Source of the DNA: a virus
Length of the DNA: 34,095 nt
Reading direction: 5' to 3' (one strand)
Virus record (IMG/VR): IMGVR_UViG_3300008339_000252
Span: 1 to 34,095 of that record
The notes below the pieces were generated by a model. The model was not told the DNA's origin and did not search any database. It was given only the letters and a program-made list of their open reading frames with translations. Positions 1,625-9,072 of this stretch are shown piece by piece. Numbering within the stretch: the first letter of the stretch is position 1; every line of letters begins with the position of its first letter. The translations under genes were made by a program, and so were the position numbers.

Positions 1625-2356
1625 TTAAGACATTTTTAATTGAATTTCATCAAAAAACTTAATCCTAGCGTCTATTGCATTAATAGCAGCTTTTTCTGCT
1701 TCGAACGCCTTTACAGGATCATTACCACAAAAGTATTCTACCATTTGCTCGGCTTTAGGGCCATGATCTTGCCCATCAACTTCGATGTGCCGGTCAAGGT
1801 AATAATAAAATTTAGGTGCCTCAACTGCTGATATATTCAATTGCCTTAGTATTCTTTTAAACATAAGAGGTATTACTGTCTCCCTCCCATAACAAAACGA
1901 AGAAGCGGTACAGTGAGGTCCACGCCGAATGCTCTGAAACGTAGTTTCAATAAATTCCGATGAAGCTTTAGGAATAATATTGAAATCTTTCTTGTCTAAA
2001 AATTCAATAATTTTAGACGCATCGGCTTCAATCTCTAACATAGCTTGCAGATATAAATCAAAATGACTAATGGATCCTTTACCATCCGGCGTCAAATCTG
2101 ACTCTTCACAAAGAACAATTTCATTAATCATTCTTGCAATAGGACTACGCGTTCCTTGCGTCGGAAACCACAGTTCCGTTGATGGGCAAGCGTTATGCTG
2201 CAAAGTCTTAATTAAACTCATAAAGTCCCAAACAGCAAACACATGATGTTCCATAAAGATTCGCAAATCTTCGATTGTCTGTATGCTATTTGTGACTAAT
2301 AAACTATGATTGGCAAGCTTTTGTTGTTTTGCTATAATCCGCGTAGTATCTATCAT
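1625..2356 (-). CDS. DUF3050 protein, haem-oxygenase-like fold, putative oxidase
   Basis: A 243-residue protein with strong DUF3050 hallmarks: FMEHHVFAVWDFMSLIKTLQ (residues 34-53), INEIVLCEESD (77-87), SHFDLY (97-102), CYGRETVIPLMF (155-166) and YYLDRHIEVDGQDHGP (185-200). DUF3050 belongs to the haem-oxygenase/TenA/PqqC-like helical fold. The H190-x3-D194-x3-H198 pattern, with upstream acidic and His residues (E36, H37/H38, E79, E84, E85, E159), resembles the ligand set of haem-oxygenase-like diiron oxidases. That catalytic assignment is inference. The ATG overlaps the stop of the SPASM radical SAM gene by 4 nt, so the two are translationally coupled and likely act on the same pathway. It is the last gene of the cassette. 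Near full length for the family. Confidence 0.85.
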   Translation of the reverse strand: MIDTTRIIAKQQKLANHSLLVTNSIQTIEDLRIFMEHHVFAVWDFMSLIKTLQHNACPSTELWFPTQGTRSPIARMINEIVLCEESDLTPDGKGSISHFDLYLQAMLEIEADASKIIEFLDKKDFNIIPKASSEFIETTFQSIRRGPHCTASSFCYGRETVIPLMFKRILRQLNISAVEAPKFYYYLDRHIEVDGQDHGPKAEQMVEYFCGNDPVKAFEAEKAAINAIDARIKFFDEIQLKMS

Positions 2357-3663
2357 GTTGCAATAATGCCTGTTTCCTTTAATTCTACATCTGATCCAAA
2401 TAACAACTTAAATGCAGCGTTCTGAATAGCGCCATACCATATTTTTTCAACTCTACAATTTTTAAGGAACACCTCTGTAGGAAAATCAATTGGACAAGAG
2501 CTCTTACACAGTCGTCTAACTTGGCAATCGGAACAGTGCGTCTTTTTTCTATCCAAAGCTAAAGATACAATTTTCACGCCTTTTATATTTGAGACATGTC
2601 CGCTGTTGTATTTTTCATGCGTGTGGGGGCATAGCCTGACATTACCCCTTAAATCCATACTTAATATATCTGATGCATCTGCTCCGCAGTTTGTGGTAAT
2701 AGTGACTGGTATTTCGTGTTTGACGGACTGAGCAAATTTGAGTGCCCCTGTATCCCCATCAAAAACATTGGATTGTAAGATCGGTAAAGTTTTAGATCTG
2801 CCTTTTTCTTTTAACTGTAATATCGAGGCATCCATGTAATTCTTCATTACTGTTCTGAAGGCTTCTAAATTGTCTCCTTGGATTACATGGTCGGAGCTAT
2901 TTTTTGAATCCGTTTCATCGTATGTTTTACCAAGTGTATAGCTTATCTTTGAATTTTTTAACCCATTATCTGTGGCTAGTTTATAAAAATAATCATTAAT
3001 TAAAAACATATCAAAATTAGTATGGCTAACTACAGGATTAAAACTATATTGGAATTTTGGGTATAGAGCATCAAGTTGCTTCAACACATCCACTATTTGA
3101 GGACGTTTGAATATATCTTCTCCGCGAAGCGATTCTTGACCAGGCCCATCATGGCTTATTCCCATAGCCACAGTCGATTTCAACTGCTTGAAAAAATCCA
3201 CGTGCTTTTGACGAAGAGCGCTACCGTTTGTGGAAATATACCAAGAAATTGTTTTGCTATCAAAGTGGGTCATAATTTTAACCATATCGTTCCAATAAAG
3301 GAATGGTTCGCCGCCCCACAATTCTATGCGTGTTAATTCTGATATGTCGAGATATTTTTCTACCGATTCCAAGAAGCCCGGCGTCCAGAAATTTTCAGGT
3401 CTTTCTGAAGGATCGCCAATGTCTTTTTGCATACAATACCCACATGAATAATTACATGCATGCCCAAGTAAGAGCCTTAGCCCTTTTGGTTTATTGGTTT
3501 TAGTGACGACTCCATTTTGAGCAGCTTGTTCCGCATACCAGTCTTCAGACTCTACCGGTGAAGCGGATAGAGGCTGTCCTTCTGCATTTACGAGCGCGTT
3601 TCTATCATTGTTGTAATAAAATACTTGACCTGTTTCAATAACTTCAAATTTGGCAAAGCTCAT
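2353..3663 (-). CDS. Radical SAM/SPASM maturase (RiPP-type), adjacent to His-rich small protein
   Basis: A 436-residue protein. The radical SAM cluster motif is C70-x3-C74-x2-C77, followed by IELWGGEPFLYW (GGEP at 117-120). A complete SPASM domain follows: C326 and C345, then C377-x2-C380-x5-C386-x3-C390 and C403, the canonical set for two auxiliary 4Fe-4S clusters. This architecture is that of peptide or protein maturases such as anSME, PqqE, AlbA and QhpD. The first 60 residues precede the core and could be a substrate-binding region, but I cannot identify a RiPP recognition element by eye. The gene lies 15 nt after the 131-residue His-rich gene and overlaps the DUF3050 gene, so these three form a natural sub-module. 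Enzyme class is seen; substrate is inferred. Confidence 0.93.
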   Translation of the reverse strand: MSFAKFEVIETGQVFYYNNDRNALVNAEGQPLSASPVESEDWYAEQAAQNGVVTKTNKPKGLRLLLGHACNYSCGYCMQKDIGDPSERPENFWTPGFLESVEKYLDISELTRIELWGGEPFLYWNDMVKIMTHFDSKTISWYISTNGSALRQKHVDFFKQLKSTVAMGISHDGPGQESLRGEDIFKRPQIVDVLKQLDALYPKFQYSFNPVVSHTNFDMFLINDYFYKLATDNGLKNSKISYTLGKTYDETDSKNSSDHVIQGDNLEAFRTVMKNYMDASILQLKEKGRSKTLPILQSNVFDGDTGALKFAQSVKHEIPVTITTNCGADASDILSMDLRGNVRLCPHTHEKYNSGHVSNIKGVKIVSLALDRKKTHCSDCQVRRLCKSSCPIDFPTEVFLKNCRVEKIWYGAIQNAAFKLLFGSDVELKETGIIAT

Positions 3664-3678
3664 AATATACTCTCATAA

Positions 3679-4074
3679 TTAATAATTATCGTCAATCGGG
3701 TGATAGTGAGATCTTAACGCGTTTGCTGCAGTTACATGTTGATTAATGTAGGTGGCTGTAACAATTGATGCAGGATCTGGAATCCCGGGCGCGGTCCACC
3801 CTGGAATTGGATCAGTATTAACGTTTCGCGCACTGGTACTCCCATTGTTGCCATAATCAAAAATTCTGTCATAATCCACATACTGGTGATAATGCCGATA
3901 GAACGTATATAACAGATTACTGAGGGTGATAAAATCTTGACGCTGTATTGTATTTCCTGCAACGAAACGTGCTCTGAGTTCTTGACGATAAGACAGAGCA
4001 ACGCCAGTGTCCAGATTTTGCCCTGAGTCGTAGTTTAGTGGGAATCCTGCGTTTTGACTGGTTGATAATGGCAT
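3679..4074 (-). CDS. 131-residue protein with two HxH modules; candidate modification substrate
   Basis: I do not recognise a named family. The protein carries two copies of a helix-plus-His-x-His module: residues 43-63, ending H61-Y-H63, and residues 105-125, ending H123-Y-H125 just before the C-terminal PIDDNY. Both align without gaps to residues 25-45 of the 64-residue protein encoded at 7914-8108. Between them is a Gly/Asn/Pro-rich linker. The start is fixed by a perfect AGGAGG (4080-4085) 5 nt before the ATG. It lies 15 nt upstream of a SPASM radical SAM gene. It could be a maturase substrate, or a small virion protein whose HxH motifs bind metal, as in phage fibre and spike tips (T4 gp37, P2 gpV). 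There is no Cys. Confidence 0.75.
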   Translation of the reverse strand: MPLSTSQNAGFPLNYDSGQNLDTGVALSYRQELRARFVAGNTIQRQDFITLSNLLYTFYRHYHQYVDYDRIFDYGNNGSTSARNVNTDPIPGWTAPGIPDPASIVTATYINQHVTAANALRSHYHPIDDNY

Positions 4075-4089: not shown

Positions 4090-5208
4090 CTATTTATTCC
4101 AATGTATAATTGGGATTACTTTTGATTGAGGTTTAACAAGACCGTATTGTGTGTGCTTAAACCCACTCTCTATCAACTTATGGTAATATTTGCAACTTGA
4201 TCGTAGCATAAATTCTGGCACAAAATTAAAGTCTTTGTTAAACTTAAATTTTTGAACTTCATTAAAATAATCTACAAATTTTTGTTCTATAGCAGTGCCG
4301 GGAACAATCTCTTTGGCAAACTTATTATATAATTCTTGTTTACCAGTAAGCATTTCATACATTAACTCCGACGCGTTGAAGTCTTGATCTTTAACAAATG
4401 TAAAGAACGGATCCCAGTTTATATCTGTAGCATCATCGATGCTGTAGAAAAATCTATCGTTGTATAAGTGAATTGCTTCTCTGTATATCTGATATGTTTT
4501 ATTATTATGACTTAGCACATATGTATTCTGATAATCGTACTTACCTTGCTCTAAGTCGTACCTAGCATTAGCATCGTCTCTTAAATCATGCTGAAGACAA
4601 TTATACAATCCCCGATCATTCATCCAACCAACTATCTCTTCTACTTGCGGAGGCGTAGGATCATTTGTCGTACGAATAATTTTTATTTTAGCAATATCAT
4701 ACTTCGAAGCATAATCCTCCAACACTTCGATAATTTGTTTATTCTTATTTGTTTTTACGAGGAAGTGATCACTAAGACTAATATCTGCCATCCCCTTCAA
4801 CGTAACATGATCCATTAATGTTTTACGGTGGGTAAGGATAGCATTATCCGTCATTCCATATTCAAATACACTTCCGTGCGATTTATACCAGTCAAAAATA
4901 TACGGATGATTGAGGCGAAGATATGTTAGATCGTCGTTTGTACGTACGACGTAGAAATGATCAAACACATCGTACCACCTTGCTTCATCTCTTGATGTTA
5001 TTATCGTGGGTATGTTTTGAATATAATTAGAAAACCCTTGTTTAAGCTTATCTTTAATGTAACATATCTGACAACCTGCATGGCATGTATACTTGTATGT
5101 GGGCGTAAAGTACAAGTCAAACGTAAGAGGGCTTAAGGAGTCTTCTCTTAAAAAATACGTTGTGTGATCTTGGTAATGTTCGAAATCCTCCCCTGCATAA
5201 TTACTCAT
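4090..5208 (-). CDS. Divergent radical SAM-like protein without SPASM
   Basis: A 372-residue protein with one well-formed cluster motif, C42-x3-C46-x2-C49 (CHAGCQIC), preceded by a strand-like TFDLYFTP and so consistent with a radical SAM core. It lacks a GGEP motif, and there is no C-terminal CxxC cluster of the SPASM type. A single C-terminal SSCKYYHK cannot hold an auxiliary cluster alone. The ATG lies inside the end of the preceding radical SAM gene (8-nt overlap), so the two are translationally coupled and may form a complex. It may be an enzyme on a rare branch or a partner subunit that keeps only one cluster. The radical SAM call rests on the Cys motif, position and context, so it is less secure than its neighbours. 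Confidence 0.75.
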   Translation of the reverse strand: MSNYAGEDFEHYQDHTTYFLREDSLSPLTFDLYFTPTYKYTCHAGCQICYIKDKLKQGFSNYIQNIPTIITSRDEARWYDVFDHFYVVRTNDDLTYLRLNHPYIFDWYKSHGSVFEYGMTDNAILTHRKTLMDHVTLKGMADISLSDHFLVKTNKNKQIIEVLEDYASKYDIAKIKIIRTTNDPTPPQVEEIVGWMNDRGLYNCLQHDLRDDANARYDLEQGKYDYQNTYVLSHNNKTYQIYREAIHLYNDRFFYSIDDATDINWDPFFTFVKDQDFNASELMYEMLTGKQELYNKFAKEIVPGTAIEQKFVDYFNEVQKFKFNKDFNFVPEFMLRSSCKYYHKLIESGFKHTQYGLVKPQSKVIPIIHWNK

Positions 5209-6265
5209 CTATTCCTACCCAATGAAGTAAAGATGGTTTTCGGTTCAATTTACTCATGTGCTTTACTAATACGTTGATTGTTTGGTAAAATTTTACACAA
5301 TTGCCTTTTGGTTCTTCATCAAACATTTTGTAGAGATATTTAAGGCCGCAGTATTGTCTAGAGATGCATTTGACACAATCAGGGCGAATCAGGGAATCCT
5401 CATCCCCTTGTCTATAAAGCTCAATTCCATTTCTCCATTTGCCTACTCTAAACTCATCACGTTTATACTCAAGAAAATCAAACTCCGGATAGAGGTATCC
5501 ATCCGGCCCAAGGATAACTTTACCGTGATTGTTAAGGTAGTGCTTATCAATTTCCGTATAGTTGCCATCAATGTAGCACACAACGCCATTTACATAAAGC
5601 GTATGCAGCATCTTAGAAAAATCATACATGAACCTGTCTAGATTCATTTCATCTAGAAGTACCTTAAACTTCTGACGGCCACGATAATGTCTTAAGGGAA
5701 TAAGATTAACAACGTTGCAATGTAGAGTCTTACATGCATTAATAACTGCTGTAGACGATTCGATGTCCATTGCTCCAGGACTTGACACTGGTACAACAAA
5801 CTGAAACAGGCAGTTTGTCTTTGTAGCATGCAATACTTTAGCAATAGCTTCTAAATCAACAGGAGCCCTGTTAATATCTTGAAAATTAAAATCGTAACTA
5901 AATGTAATCTGACCCTTGCCTGCCCACTTCTCAAAGAACCATGCGTTATCCGCAATAAGAGAGCCATTGGTAGTCATTGTAAATTTGCAACCTAATTTTT
6001 CCAAATGGGTTGATATTTTATCAAGAATAAAATCCATTTTCTTAGCGTAGATCATTGGCTCGCCACCATGGAAGCAAATGTACTCAATGGGATGACCGCT
6101 CTCTACAATAGCGTCCATGAAAGCCACTATATCTTCCACAGCAGTCGTCTTCATATTTTGAGAGCCAATGTCCTCCCGTATGAATGCTCTATCACAATAC
6201 ACACAATCAAAATTGCAAGTATCCCCTAGATAGATAACTACGTTTTTGACGTTAGTTAAATCCAT
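5201..6265 (-). CDS. Radical SAM protein with short SPASM/twitch-like C-terminus
   Basis: A 354-residue protein. The motif C17-x3-C21-x2-C24 (CNFDCVYC) lies close to the N-terminus, so there is no leader domain. ICFHGGEPMIY follows (GGEP 67-70), then TMTTNGSLI, a usual strand of this fold. Near the C-terminus is C297-x2-C300-x5-C306 and C323, which looks like a shortened SPASM or twitch domain able to bind at least one auxiliary cluster. These traits fit peptide-modifying radical SAM enzymes. The start overlaps the 548-residue enzyme by 14 nt, and its own end overlaps the next radical SAM gene by 8 nt, so three such genes are translated as one unit. The reaction is unknown. Confidence 0.92.
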   Translation of the reverse strand: MDLTNVKNVVIYLGDTCNFDCVYCDRAFIREDIGSQNMKTTAVEDIVAFMDAIVESGHPIEYICFHGGEPMIYAKKMDFILDKISTHLEKLGCKFTMTTNGSLIADNAWFFEKWAGKGQITFSYDFNFQDINRAPVDLEAIAKVLHATKTNCLFQFVVPVSSPGAMDIESSTAVINACKTLHCNVVNLIPLRHYRGRQKFKVLLDEMNLDRFMYDFSKMLHTLYVNGVVCYIDGNYTEIDKHYLNNHGKVILGPDGYLYPEFDFLEYKRDEFRVGKWRNGIELYRQGDEDSLIRPDCVKCISRQYCGLKYLYKMFDEEPKGNCVKFYQTINVLVKHMSKLNRKPSLLHWVGIDE

Positions 6266-7898
6266 AATTCTTTTGATTAAATATTATTGTAGATATTAAT
6301 TGCAAATAGAATATTCTTATTTCTGGCGTATCTCCATCAACAATCTTAGTTGGAATTCCTTGACGTCCAGCAATTGCCTTGTATAGATCTACAGCTTCCA
6401 TTTCTCCTGCGTCGTTTGTCTCGCCACTAATGTGCGTCCATATATCTAACATAATTTGCCTATAAGGCTTGTAGTGGGACTTCGTGCATTTACCCATCTC
6501 CGGCCTTTCACCAGTCCGCAGATATTCCAACATATAATCTGCCCCAGTAGCCATAGCCTTCTCTTCGCCATCTTGTTGTAGCTGAGCAAGTCTAATTTCA
6601 AACATTCTGTGAAATTGTTTCTTAGCAACATCAGCTTGTAAATCAAGATATAGCTTAACAATTTCTTGACACATGTCGTCGGGTCTAAACATACGAGGGC
6701 CTGTATCAATATTGCCGGCTGGACATTGGTAACACATGTTCTGATAATTACACGTCTTACACTTCTCCTCTATTTGAAACATTTCGTTGTACATCGCCTG
6801 AAATTTGGTATAGCGATCGACGTATACTTTATCATCTAGTATGTTTCCAAGGATTGTTTCGTGAGCAGCTGCTTTTTGATTCGTGAAGAAGTAGCAGCCC
6901 GAGAAGTCGCCAGACGCGTCAATTGCTATCATATCTGAGCCAACCATACAATTGTTATCTTGTTTTTCGCCAACTCCTTCACTAAACAATACAGTCAAAT
7001 CCCTATACTTGTCTAAGCAATCGAACAACGCCTTACGCATTGTGTTCCAATTCTTTTCTTCCCATTTAATATAGCCGCGTCGAGAGTCAAGCACTAACGG
7101 ATGCACAATTAATCTTTTAACACCTTTCGCATACAAGGCTTCTATAAAGTTATGTAATGTGTCGGCCGTCTCTTCTGATAGAGTGCAGCGGATAGTTAGT
7201 CTAGCCCCGACGTTGGGAATTTTTGTAATCTTACTTACGTTAGAAAGAATTGTATTTAACTGATCTTGTGTAATGTCCCTATAATCTTTCTCAAGGTCCA
7301 TTGTATCTAAGCTAATCAACATGTACGTATATCTTTTGCTAAAATACATGTTAATAAAATCATCGTCTAACAGCAATCCGTTAGTGCAAATAGAAACTCC
7401 CGTACCTGTATACCCAACCCAATTTGAATTTAATTCTTTGTCGTGCGTGTTAATAAAATCTCTAATTAACGGCTTATGGATAAGAGGTTCGCCTCCAAAA
7501 AATTGAAGGATTTTTAAAGGACGATCGTTAATATTTTTGAGCCAGTCGTATGCTTTTTTTACAGACTCTACTGTAAATCTACCATAATCTTTATTGTGTT
7601 GCTCATAGCAATAATTGCAGCTAAGGTTGCAAGCGTTTGTAAGAAGAAGATTCATGTGAGCTAAACTACCAAACAAGTGTTTAGCTTCACTAAAGCGCTT
7701 TACTTGTTCTTCTTCTGATGGGATAATTGAGATTAGCTTGTTTTCTTTTTCCAAGCCATTGGGAGTAGTAATTGTACTAACTGTAGTTTTTAGCGTTCCG
7801 TCAGGTAATTGAATTACAGATGCAGCATGTCCCGCAATACGATCTTTTTGAGCATCATTGAGCGTTCTGTATATGTTTACTACATTCACTTGGTTCAT
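6252..7898 (-). CDS. Radical SAM/SPASM maturase next to the Cys-rich small protein
   Basis: A 548-residue protein. Radical SAM motif C90-x3-C94-x2-C97 (CNLSCNYC), then FFGGEPLI (GGEP 135-138) and SICTNGLLL. The SPASM region has C317, C335, C380-x2-C383-x5-C389-x2-C392 and C410. The domain is complete but for a CX2C rather than CX3C in the last pair. About 90 residues precede the core and about 130 follow SPASM; both extensions are unrecognised and could bind substrate. The architecture matches RiPP and protein maturases that form thioether, C-C or formylglycine products. The gene starts 15 nt after the 64-residue Cys/His gene. AGGGAAG overlapping that gene's stop is a usable though distant ribosome-binding site. 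Enzyme class is certain; substrate pairing is inference. Confidence 0.94.
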   Translation of the reverse strand: MNQVNVVNIYRTLNDAQKDRIAGHAASVIQLPDGTLKTTVSTITTPNGLEKENKLISIIPSEEEQVKRFSEAKHLFGSLAHMNLLLTNACNLSCNYCYEQHNKDYGRFTVESVKKAYDWLKNINDRPLKILQFFGGEPLIHKPLIRDFINTHDKELNSNWVGYTGTGVSICTNGLLLDDDFINMYFSKRYTYMLISLDTMDLEKDYRDITQDQLNTILSNVSKITKIPNVGARLTIRCTLSEETADTLHNFIEALYAKGVKRLIVHPLVLDSRRGYIKWEEKNWNTMRKALFDCLDKYRDLTVLFSEGVGEKQDNNCMVGSDMIAIDASGDFSGCYFFTNQKAAAHETILGNILDDKVYVDRYTKFQAMYNEMFQIEEKCKTCNYQNMCYQCPAGNIDTGPRMFRPDDMCQEIVKLYLDLQADVAKKQFHRMFEIRLAQLQQDGEEKAMATGADYMLEYLRTGERPEMGKCTKSHYKPYRQIMLDIWTHISGETNDAGEMEAVDLYKAIAGRQGIPTKIVDGDTPEIRIFYLQLISTIIFNQKNYGFN

Positions 7899-7913: not shown

Positions 7914-8108
7914 CTATAGCGAGCCGCGTTGGCATTGGCATTGGCAATTGCTGTTGTAGTCGTCAGTAAACGTATGGCCATGCGATACTAAAGTATCTAC
8001 AATATCCAACATTTGAGTGAAATGAGCTGCTGTAATTGTTTCGCCGGCCGCCTTATCCGCTGCGGCCCCAACGCCTGAGGTAAACTGACTGGTATTATCT
8101 GCTACCAT
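7914..8108 (-). CDS. 64-residue HxH/CQCQCQ protein; candidate RiPP-like precursor
   Basis: An Ala/Thr/Gly-rich N-terminal half leads into a predicted helix (residues 25-42), then H43-G-H45-T and FTDDY, and finally C55-Q-C57-Q-C59-Q before RGSL and the stop. A small protein with a Cys-rich tail placed 15 nt upstream of a SPASM radical SAM gene, with two more after it, is the classic layout of a peptide precursor and its maturases. Residues 25-45 align without gaps with both modules of the 131-residue protein. An AGGAG (8115-8119) sits 6 nt before the ATG and within the end of the previous gene. Alternatives are a metal-binding tip protein of the virion or an Fe-S carrier. No family is recognised with certainty; the coding call is strong because of the ribosome-binding site and tight packing. 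Confidence 0.8.
   Translation of the reverse strand: MVADNTSQFTSGVGAAADKAAGETITAAHFTQMLDIVDTLVSHGHTFTDDYNSNCQCQCQRGSL
7929..7946. repeat. Three tandem hexamers encoding Cys-Gln
   Basis: The plus strand reads ttggca three times in a row; on the coding strand each TGCCAA encodes one Cys-Gln of the C55-Q60 tail. A fourth related unit, CAACGC, breaks the pattern. In-frame hexamer repeats can gain or lose units by slippage, changing the number of Cys residues without a frameshift. Confidence 0.85.
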
Positions 8109-8109
8109 T

Positions 8110-9072
8110 TTATACTCCTAAAAGAAGAGATTCTATTGTTATTTTTCTATCATCTGATATTATATATGGCTTCGTGAGGTCGTAACAATCGAACGTAACC
8201 TTGATATATCCCATACCAGGCTGCTTTTTAACTAGGATGGTATTACCCTTTATTTCCGTATCCCAAGATGACTTTACTGTAAAATAGTTATTAAGTAAAC
8301 AACTATTCGTTTTATGATATATTAACGAATTATGACCAATCTCTATCTTGAGATAGTCTTTTTCAACAACCAATGTATTTGCCACATATTCGCAATCAAC
8401 CCTAGGTTCAAAAGCAAACCTTACTATATTACCGGTTTGGTCGTGAGTTGATGAAATGGTGCGCTCATTTGTATTCATGCTAACGCCGGCATGGCCAGAA
8501 ATAATGTTATGGTTGCACATTAACACATATCCATTTGTTTTTGCCAACCGAAAAGCTATAAAAAAAGTAAGAACGTTGATTTGTTCGTTTTGCCCTATAT
8601 CGTCTATGCCATCAAACACTTTAAGCTGGTTGTCCTTCCCCCGCACAATATACTGGGAGTCTTTCAACAGCGTCGTTTCGCTTGTCGGGTCCTGTTTATT
8701 TAATATAAGGGCTAATGATACCCATTCATACTCATCTAACGCGCGCTCCATTAAATCAAGGTCAAGAATCCTTGTGTTGTCAGGTGTGCGCATTTGAGCA
8801 GGTAAAAAAGATCTAGTAATTAATACGTCATTTCCGTCTTGCAAAAAAACAAGATTAGTAATATCTTTATCAAACTGACGTAGTATGGGGCCCTGCTTAT
8901 ACTCTCCGGCAGCTTTGCGTAGGGATGGAAGAAGAAGTCGAGTGTTAGCAGGCACTACTAATGTAGATCCGTTTTGATCTACAAATGTACGGTTTGTATT
9001 ATTAATGGCATTAGATACCCCATCCCACTGGGAAGGTCTATTTGTTGCTCGCATAAAAAGCCAATGTTTCAT
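8110..9072 (-). CDS. Unrecognised 320-residue protein, possibly lectin-like beta-sandwich
   Basis: I do not recognise this family. The sequence alternates hydrophobic strands with polar turns. A central stretch, from EWVSLALILNKQD through a GKDNQLKVFDG strand to FFIAFRLAKTNGYVLMCNHN and ISGHAGVSMN, has the spacing of concanavalin/LamG-type jelly-roll domains, which often bind glycans. That is a weak visual inference. There is no signal peptide or membrane segment. The ATG overlaps the stop of the 189-residue gene by 4 nt, and the gene is followed after one base by the 64-residue small protein, whose ribosome-binding site lies inside this gene's last codons. It could be a virion protein carried in the cassette or a partner of the modification enzymes. 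Confidence 0.7.
   Translation of the reverse strand: MKHWLFMRATNRPSQWDGVSNAINNTNRTFVDQNGSTLVVPANTRLLLPSLRKAAGEYKQGPILRQFDKDITNLVFLQDGNDVLITRSFLPAQMRTPDNTRILDLDLMERALDEYEWVSLALILNKQDPTSETTLLKDSQYIVRGKDNQLKVFDGIDDIGQNEQINVLTFFIAFRLAKTNGYVLMCNHNIISGHAGVSMNTNERTISSTHDQTGNIVRFAFEPRVDCEYVANTLVVEKDYLKIEIGHNSLIYHKTNSCLLNNYFTVKSSWDTEIKGNTILVKKQPGMGYIKVTFDCYDLTKPYIISDDRKITIESLLLGV

Follow-up and report, generated by a model that had tools for sequence, protein, structure and literature searches.

Two small proteins of a marine phage, 131 and 64 residues long, are homologous as judged by their family profiles, carrying two copies and one copy, respectively, of an H-x-H module. Together with a protein of ~320 residues and four radical-SAM genes (A to D), they make up a conserved cassette that has apparently not been described before. 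The 64-aa protein ends in an invariant array of alternating cysteines and, as far as sequences tell, there is a statistical linkage, across many phages and genome loci, between such arrays in tail-fibre-like proteins and radical-SAM relatives. With modest confidence, we lean towards the view that the cassette is a maturation set for a phage tail-tip protein, in which the radical-SAM enzymes would modify the cysteine array and the HxH modules would mount it.

The window, meaning the whole analysed stretch of 34,095 bases (one viral record), contains a T4-like baseplate and fibre region, and the cassette genes lie on its minus strand as follows.

1625..2356, minus strand: DUF3050 (haem-oxygenase-like) protein, accessory; PF11251 at 6.3e-71; in 17 of 33 contigs
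2353..3663, minus strand: radical SAM/SPASM enzyme D, 436 aa; PF04055 at 36.9 bits; kin of an enzyme found near fibre cysteine arrays
3679..4074, minus strand: 131-aa protein with two HxHx3D modules and no cysteine; phrog_31780 at E 1.4e-6
3700..3762, minus strand: module 2 of the 131-aa protein, residues 105-125, HxH at 123/125; H123, H125 and D129 invariant in 27 sequences
3886..3948, minus strand: module 1 of the 131-aa protein, residues 43-63, HxH at 61/63; H61, H63 and D67 invariant in 27 sequences
4090..5208, minus strand: divergent radical-SAM-like protein C, 372 aa; phrog_36229 at 7e-38, CX3CX2C, no Pfam match
5201..6265, minus strand: radical SAM enzyme B, 354 aa; PF04055 at 42.6 bits, CX3CX2C
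6252..7898, minus strand: radical SAM/SPASM enzyme A, 548 aa; PF04055 at 60.3 bits, PF13186 at 22.5 bits, CX3CX2C
7914..8108, minus strand: 64-aa protein with one HxHx3D module, C-terminal CxCxC array and RG(S/T) tail
7932..7946, minus strand: array C55-x-C57-x-C59, the proposed substrate; C55, C57 and C59 invariant in 26 sequences
7974..8036, minus strand: module 3, in the 64-aa protein, residues 25-45, HxH at 43/45
8110..9072, minus strand: 320-aa partner protein; accompanies the 64-aa gene on 32 of 33 contigs; BFVD match from phage RP12
10344..12386, minus strand: B12-binding radical SAM protein, accessory; PF02310 at 40 bits; in 3 of 33 contigs

The earlier note had aligned residues 43-63 and 105-125 of the 131-aa protein with residues 25-45 of the 64-aa protein as three copies of one module. 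Both open reading frames and all three modules are present at these positions, with hydrophobic residues at columns 1, 6 and 16 and HxH at columns 19-21. The window sequences alone are weak evidence for this alignment. In a shuffle test on the 18 residues before HxH, p was 0.00055 for modules 2 and 3, 0.016 for modules 1 and 3, and 0.78 for modules 1 and 2. Two HxH motifs occurred by chance in 0.6% of 20,000 shuffles of the 131-aa protein, and one in 9% of 20,000 shuffles of the 64-aa protein. The alignment within the window is uneven, with modules 1 and 2 unmatched; family profiles settle the matter.

Relatives came from 23 loci reached through enzyme D, 32 through the 64-aa family and 21 through the 131-aa family. 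Iterated HMMs merged the radical-SAM families with one another, and likewise both HxH families; the counts use curated seeds only. With the window left out, the 131-family HMM gave all 26 members of the 64-aa family higher scores than any of 5,200 shuffles, and the 64-aa protein of the window reached 24.7 bits against 9.7 for the best shuffle. With the 64-family HMM, also built without the window, 21 of 27 members of the 131-aa family outscored every one of 5,400 shuffles. The 131-aa protein of the window barely passes here (16.3 bits vs 15.5 for the best shuffle), with one domain per module, scoring 10.1 bits at residues 31-69 and 7.3 bits at residues 101-131. Direct comparison of the two families by hhalign gave a probability of 94.7 and E of 5.7e-8. 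A PHROG family of unknown function, phrog_31780, matches the 131-aa protein over residues 31-127 at E 1.4e-6 and the 64-aa protein at E 0.012. The earlier note had named failure of the family profiles to match each other as the sign of a chance alignment; they do match each other and, with hhalign, support common ancestry of the three modules, confirming the homology of the two proteins at the profile level.

H-x-H-x3-D is invariant in both families (27 and 26 aligned proteins), and the module count is constant, being exactly two in 27 of 27 proteins of the 131-type and exactly one in 26 of 26 of the 64-type. In an AlphaFold model of the 131-aa monomer (pTM 0.70), a helix at residues 45-59 leads into a strand at 61-68 that holds the first HxH, and another helix at 107-121 lies immediately ahead of the second. 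Comparison of this model with PDB folds gave no match at Z >= 2, and direct searches of the named-phage collection with the 131-aa and 64-aa sequences gave none. A 128-aa relative likewise matched no named phage, and weak terminase matches of a 67-aa relative (E 0.1 or worse) were taken as chance. At two loci (L053 and L059), the two-module protein is lengthened by extra sequence, which at L053 ends in a part that looks Hint-like by eye.

The module had been put forward as the recognition or modification unit. A docking or recognition part is possible, but modification of the module is unsupported: HxHx3D is invariant, cysteine is absent from 26 of 27 proteins of the 131-type, and beyond the cassette it is the CxC array, not HxH, that tracks radical-SAM genes. 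A profile search with the module, suggested at the same time, found nothing beyond the two families at E < 0.01 among 3,589 predicted genes, on which ground a generic fibre HxH repeat was rejected as its explanation.

Alternatively, the modules could be self-sufficient metal-binding units of a fibre tip like those of T4 gp37/gp12, while the radical-SAM enzymes act elsewhere, on another virion protein, the host envelope or cofactors. The earlier note also raised such a metal site, which is chemically attractive. It is in keeping with H-x-H being invariant in the cassette proteins and likewise present in gp37/gp12, with the T4-like baseplate and fibre setting of the window, and with three HxH units per proposed unit in both cases. 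HxH motifs of T4 gp37 are reported to hold iron (PMC11705849). On the other hand, the cassette has a predicted helix-then-strand module, with two modules on one chain and one on another, and no match to gp37/gp12 was found in sequence or fold, a missing match not being proof of no relation. Because the module profile had no outside match and the PDB sequence search with the small proteins gave no informative match, these searches do not establish homology with the known HxH fibre tips, and the cassette is not filed as a gp37-type tip. Since a metal tip would also leave the invariant CxC array and its linkage to the enzymes unexplained, we regard this alternative as rather unlikely.

The gene set around the small proteins is conserved. 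A 64-type gene is present on 33 contigs, of which 32 also have the 131-type and 32 the 320-type gene, while A, B, C and D are found in 31, 27, 27 and 18, respectively; many absences come from contigs or stretches that are truncated. The genes usually run 131-320-64-A-B-C-D-DUF3050, and several divergent contigs have 131-64-320-A-B-C. A distant virus (L004) keeps the first seven cassette genes and lacks both the DUF3050 protein and the B12 enzyme. The distance from the 64-aa gene to enzyme A is -40 to +20 nt in 23 of the 31 contigs with both, and 814-1021 nt in the other eight. Both small genes had been described as lying just upstream of radical SAM genes. This is true of the window, where the gaps are 15 nt, but elsewhere the 131-aa gene is upstream of the 64-aa gene; among the listed gene orders, its placement immediately before enzyme D is confined to the window and two further contigs and is thus not general.

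Every distinct relative of A (27), B (23), C (22) and D (23) has an intact CX3CX2C motif. Enzymes A, B and D exceed the PF04055 cutoff, and C has no Pfam match. In an alignment of enzyme D with 21 relatives, both CX3CX2C and the C-terminal cysteines are invariant. The B12-binding protein scores 105.9 bits against the KedN5 family, for which the cutoff is 700, and its gene adjoins a fibre gene in the window. A model of the 320-aa protein (pTM 0.82) has an Ig-like C-terminal domain; its PDB fold matches are solely Ig-like, covering about residues 214-320 at Z of 7.1 or less. At three loci (L007, L008 and L025), an ORF of 160-162 aa between B and C looks by eye like a 2OG- or cupin-type hydroxylase. 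The protein at positions 1181-1510 of the window matches a family for assembly of L-shaped tail fibres (phrog_3304, 1.6e-23), and its relatives are found downstream of the cassette in many contigs.

In the window the 64-aa protein ends in C-Q-C-Q-C. Its relatives have three to five strictly alternating cysteines, five in 22 of 26, at a spacing of 12 residues from HxH in 26 of 26, and R61 and G62 after the array are invariant in the 26 sequences of the 64-type. No other alternating-cysteine array was seen among the predicted genes of the window. This array is likely the modification site, which the earlier note overlooked. As the sole feature that the cassette has in common with simple one-enzyme systems, it is the likeliest substrate.

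The closest NCBIfam family of enzyme A is the PapB ranthipeptide maturase (NF047865), at 112.2 bits against a curated cutoff of 340; its best resemblances are to PapB, nif11, CXXX-repeat and SCIFF maturases, all below cutoffs. QhpD (TIGR03906) is at 73.9 bits against a curated cutoff of 453. A PqqD-like recognition domain gave no Pfam match at E up to 1, and such domains are often missed. Because the enzymes are all far below the cutoffs of known maturases, the chemistry is a guess, and the likeness of enzyme A to maturases of Cys-rich peptides favours thioethers. Viperin was rejected, as the score for pVip (NF038283) was at most 54.5 bits against a cutoff of 180 and the PADLOC matches were at the superfamily level only.

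A virus-borne product resembling RiPPs could also be considered, for which the 64-aa protein would be the precursor, matured at its Cys-rich end and then released to act, as toxin or signal, against rivals or the host. The short ORF with a conserved N-terminal part and a Cys-rich end does lie directly before a SPASM radical SAM gene, as in ranthipeptide and other Cys-rich RiPP systems (PapB, SCIFF, CXXX-repeat), and enzyme A is nearest to RiPP maturases. In contrast to those systems, arrays here also end large tail-fibre-like proteins rather than short precursors, and the 131-aa paralogue accompanies the 64-aa gene in 32 of 33 contigs. Since no peptidase or transporter was seen among the ten proteins scanned around the 64-aa gene, the cassette is not filed as a RiPP, and we consider such a product improbable. 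A precedent is QhpC/QhpD of quinohemoprotein amine dehydrogenase, in which a radical SAM enzyme of the same operon makes Cys-to-Asp/Glu thioethers in a small protein, and this cross-linked protein forms one subunit of a larger complex (PMC7876137). Unlike that system, the cassette has four radical-SAM genes and a strict CxCxC array, with no protease or quinone context seen.

A related arrangement is found in Achromobacter phage JWF, whose tail-fibre protein has CNCDCNCNCSC right before a Hint domain and is encoded two genes upstream of a radical SAM gene akin to D; Achromobacter phage 2-1 resembles it in array, Hint-type domain and radical SAM. Viral contigs were therefore scanned for DNA coding for CNCNCNC. 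With an ORF cutoff of 45 aa, at least 120 loci were obtained, of which 54 were in-frame, 56 had no ORF and 10 were shadowed. Among the matches listed, relatives of A-D occur at 37 of the 54 in-frame loci vs none of the 56 no-ORF loci, and a radical SAM relative at 3 of the 10 shadowed ones. The Fisher test for array vs no-ORF loci among these matches gives 1.8e-16, which is optimistic because array loci are related. When distinct array ends among the matches listed are each counted once, a radical SAM relative accompanies 32 of 44. No radical SAM was detected at 17 of the 54 array loci in these listed matches, some of which are on cut contigs. Also among the matches listed, no more than 15 residues separate the array from the C-terminus in 44 of the 54 in-frame loci, and 7 of the 120 loci match the 64-aa family profile, being thus not independent of the cassette. 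In a subset of 80 of the 120 with a 60-aa cutoff, radical SAM was found among the matches listed at 26 of 36 in-frame, 1 of 39 no-ORF and 2 of 5 shadowed loci; the lone no-ORF positive is a 45-aa array ORF, which falls under the cutoff. Ten array proteins were scanned, of which nine had PHROG matches, eight to tail-fibre families, and four had collagen repeats.

The converse scan starts from the enzyme, using an alignment (A6) built mostly of array-linked enzymes, so that it is not fully independent and covers the kin of A6 rather than all phage radical-SAM genes. At 80 viral loci, arrays of at least four alternating cysteines were found in 42 and of at least three in 56; thinning at 60% enzyme identity left 10 and 15 of 22, respectively. 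The 37 control loci had 0 and 1, and shuffled genes had at least four alternating cysteines in 8 of 18,960. On genome contigs an array was found at 34 of 80 loci and none at the remainder, over half. Since genes on the shadowed strand are lost in greedy gene calling, the array counts are lower bounds. The radical SAM region of Campylobacter phage CP220 has no alternating-Cys array; the linkage is thus not common to all phage radical-SAM genes.

Phage radical-SAM genes are usually classed as auxiliary metabolic genes, and here too the enzymes might be hitchhiking genes of that kind, with the cysteine array a plain metal-binding or disulfide tail. Radical SAM cassettes are indeed listed among the variable genes of pelagimyophages and were noted in the host-recognition region (PMC7029224). 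Likewise, section 14 of the RP12 paper places under 'other genes' ORF76 (radical SAM), ORF77 (Fe-S oxidoreductase), ORF79 (MoaA) and ORF80 (MgoB), and draws no tie to tail fibres for this region of RP12/RP31, in contrast to our proposal (PMC5468394). Recurrence of the array-enzyme linkage over divergent viral and genome loci is hard to square with hitchhiking, to which we give a slim chance. Ralstonia phage RP12 provides BFVD matches to the 131-aa protein (E 8.7e-6, 24% identity) and the 320-aa protein (E 1.5e-17). With the published ORF list, these suggest that ORF78 would be C and ORF80 the DUF3050 protein, and that this cultured phage appears to carry the cassette.

In the maturation scheme that we favour, the 64-aa protein would be the substrate and its helical HxH module a folded anchor or docking part. 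The radical SAM/SPASM enzymes encoded alongside would modify the C-terminal array, 12 residues past HxH, and most probably link its cysteines through thioethers. The 131-aa protein would act as a cysteine-free paralogous partner. The constant 2+1 HxH modules suggest a pseudo-trimer, as two modules and one add up to three HxH units; together these could build a metal site of six histidines with pseudo-threefold symmetry. Six histidines are also the number in the T4 gp37 site. Such a site, along with the 320-aa protein and its Ig-like domain, may anchor the array to the tip of a trimeric fibre, and the array, if located there in the virion, might serve host attachment or tip stability.

More tentatively, tailed phages may finish their fibres by a chemistry so far unrecognised, in which radical-SAM enzymes encoded beside fibre genes cap a distal Cys-X array. 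The lineage of the window, with four or five radical-SAM genes, would add the 2+1 HxH holder as a six-histidine mount. The cap at the fibre tip, cross-linked or otherwise non-canonical, would touch the host. Radical-SAM maturation of a Cys-rich protein is known, and its place in a phage fibre cassette appears to be new. In searches of open-access literature, no paper tied phage radical-SAM genes to tail-fibre cysteine arrays.

The linkage offers many phage radical-SAM genes a concrete, testable substrate in the fibre-tip Cys array. If it is true, phage adsorption proteins bear radical-made modifications, which would affect how receptor binding is predicted from sequence and how functional recombinant fibres are made, and would offer a source of peptide-modifying enzymes. 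Cultured systems are available in Achromobacter phages JWF and 2-1, probably in Ralstonia phages RP12/RP31, and at loci in sequenced Limnohabitans strains.

Several further arrangements were observed. In the simple systems, spacer ORFs lie between array genes and relatives of enzyme D (L091, L097 and L107, for example), coding for a family of 31 related proteins of mostly ~260-320 aa. Homology to the 320-aa protein was rejected for the four largest clusters of spacers, where hhalign probability was at most 0.1, and the only two spacer proteins matching it are from loci with the HxH cassette. In JWF (L028, 6676-8127) and 2-1 (L083, 4083-5525), the CNC array lies directly before a Hint-type domain (CFPAGT...). 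If that domain cleaves itself off, the array could end up at a new C-terminus; similar CxC-then-CFP junctions are seen at genome loci L296, L361 and L363. Enzyme-D relatives at L020-L023 stand alone, without the HxH pair. At L020, L021 and L023 each is followed by a Gly-rich protein with an ACGAC stretch at its start, and at L020 and L021 an ORF with a Gly-rich end precedes the radical SAM gene. Finally, Thalassobacter stenotrophicus and Thalassobius vesicularis (L337, L339 and L359; L334 and L356) have several enzyme-D relatives per genome.
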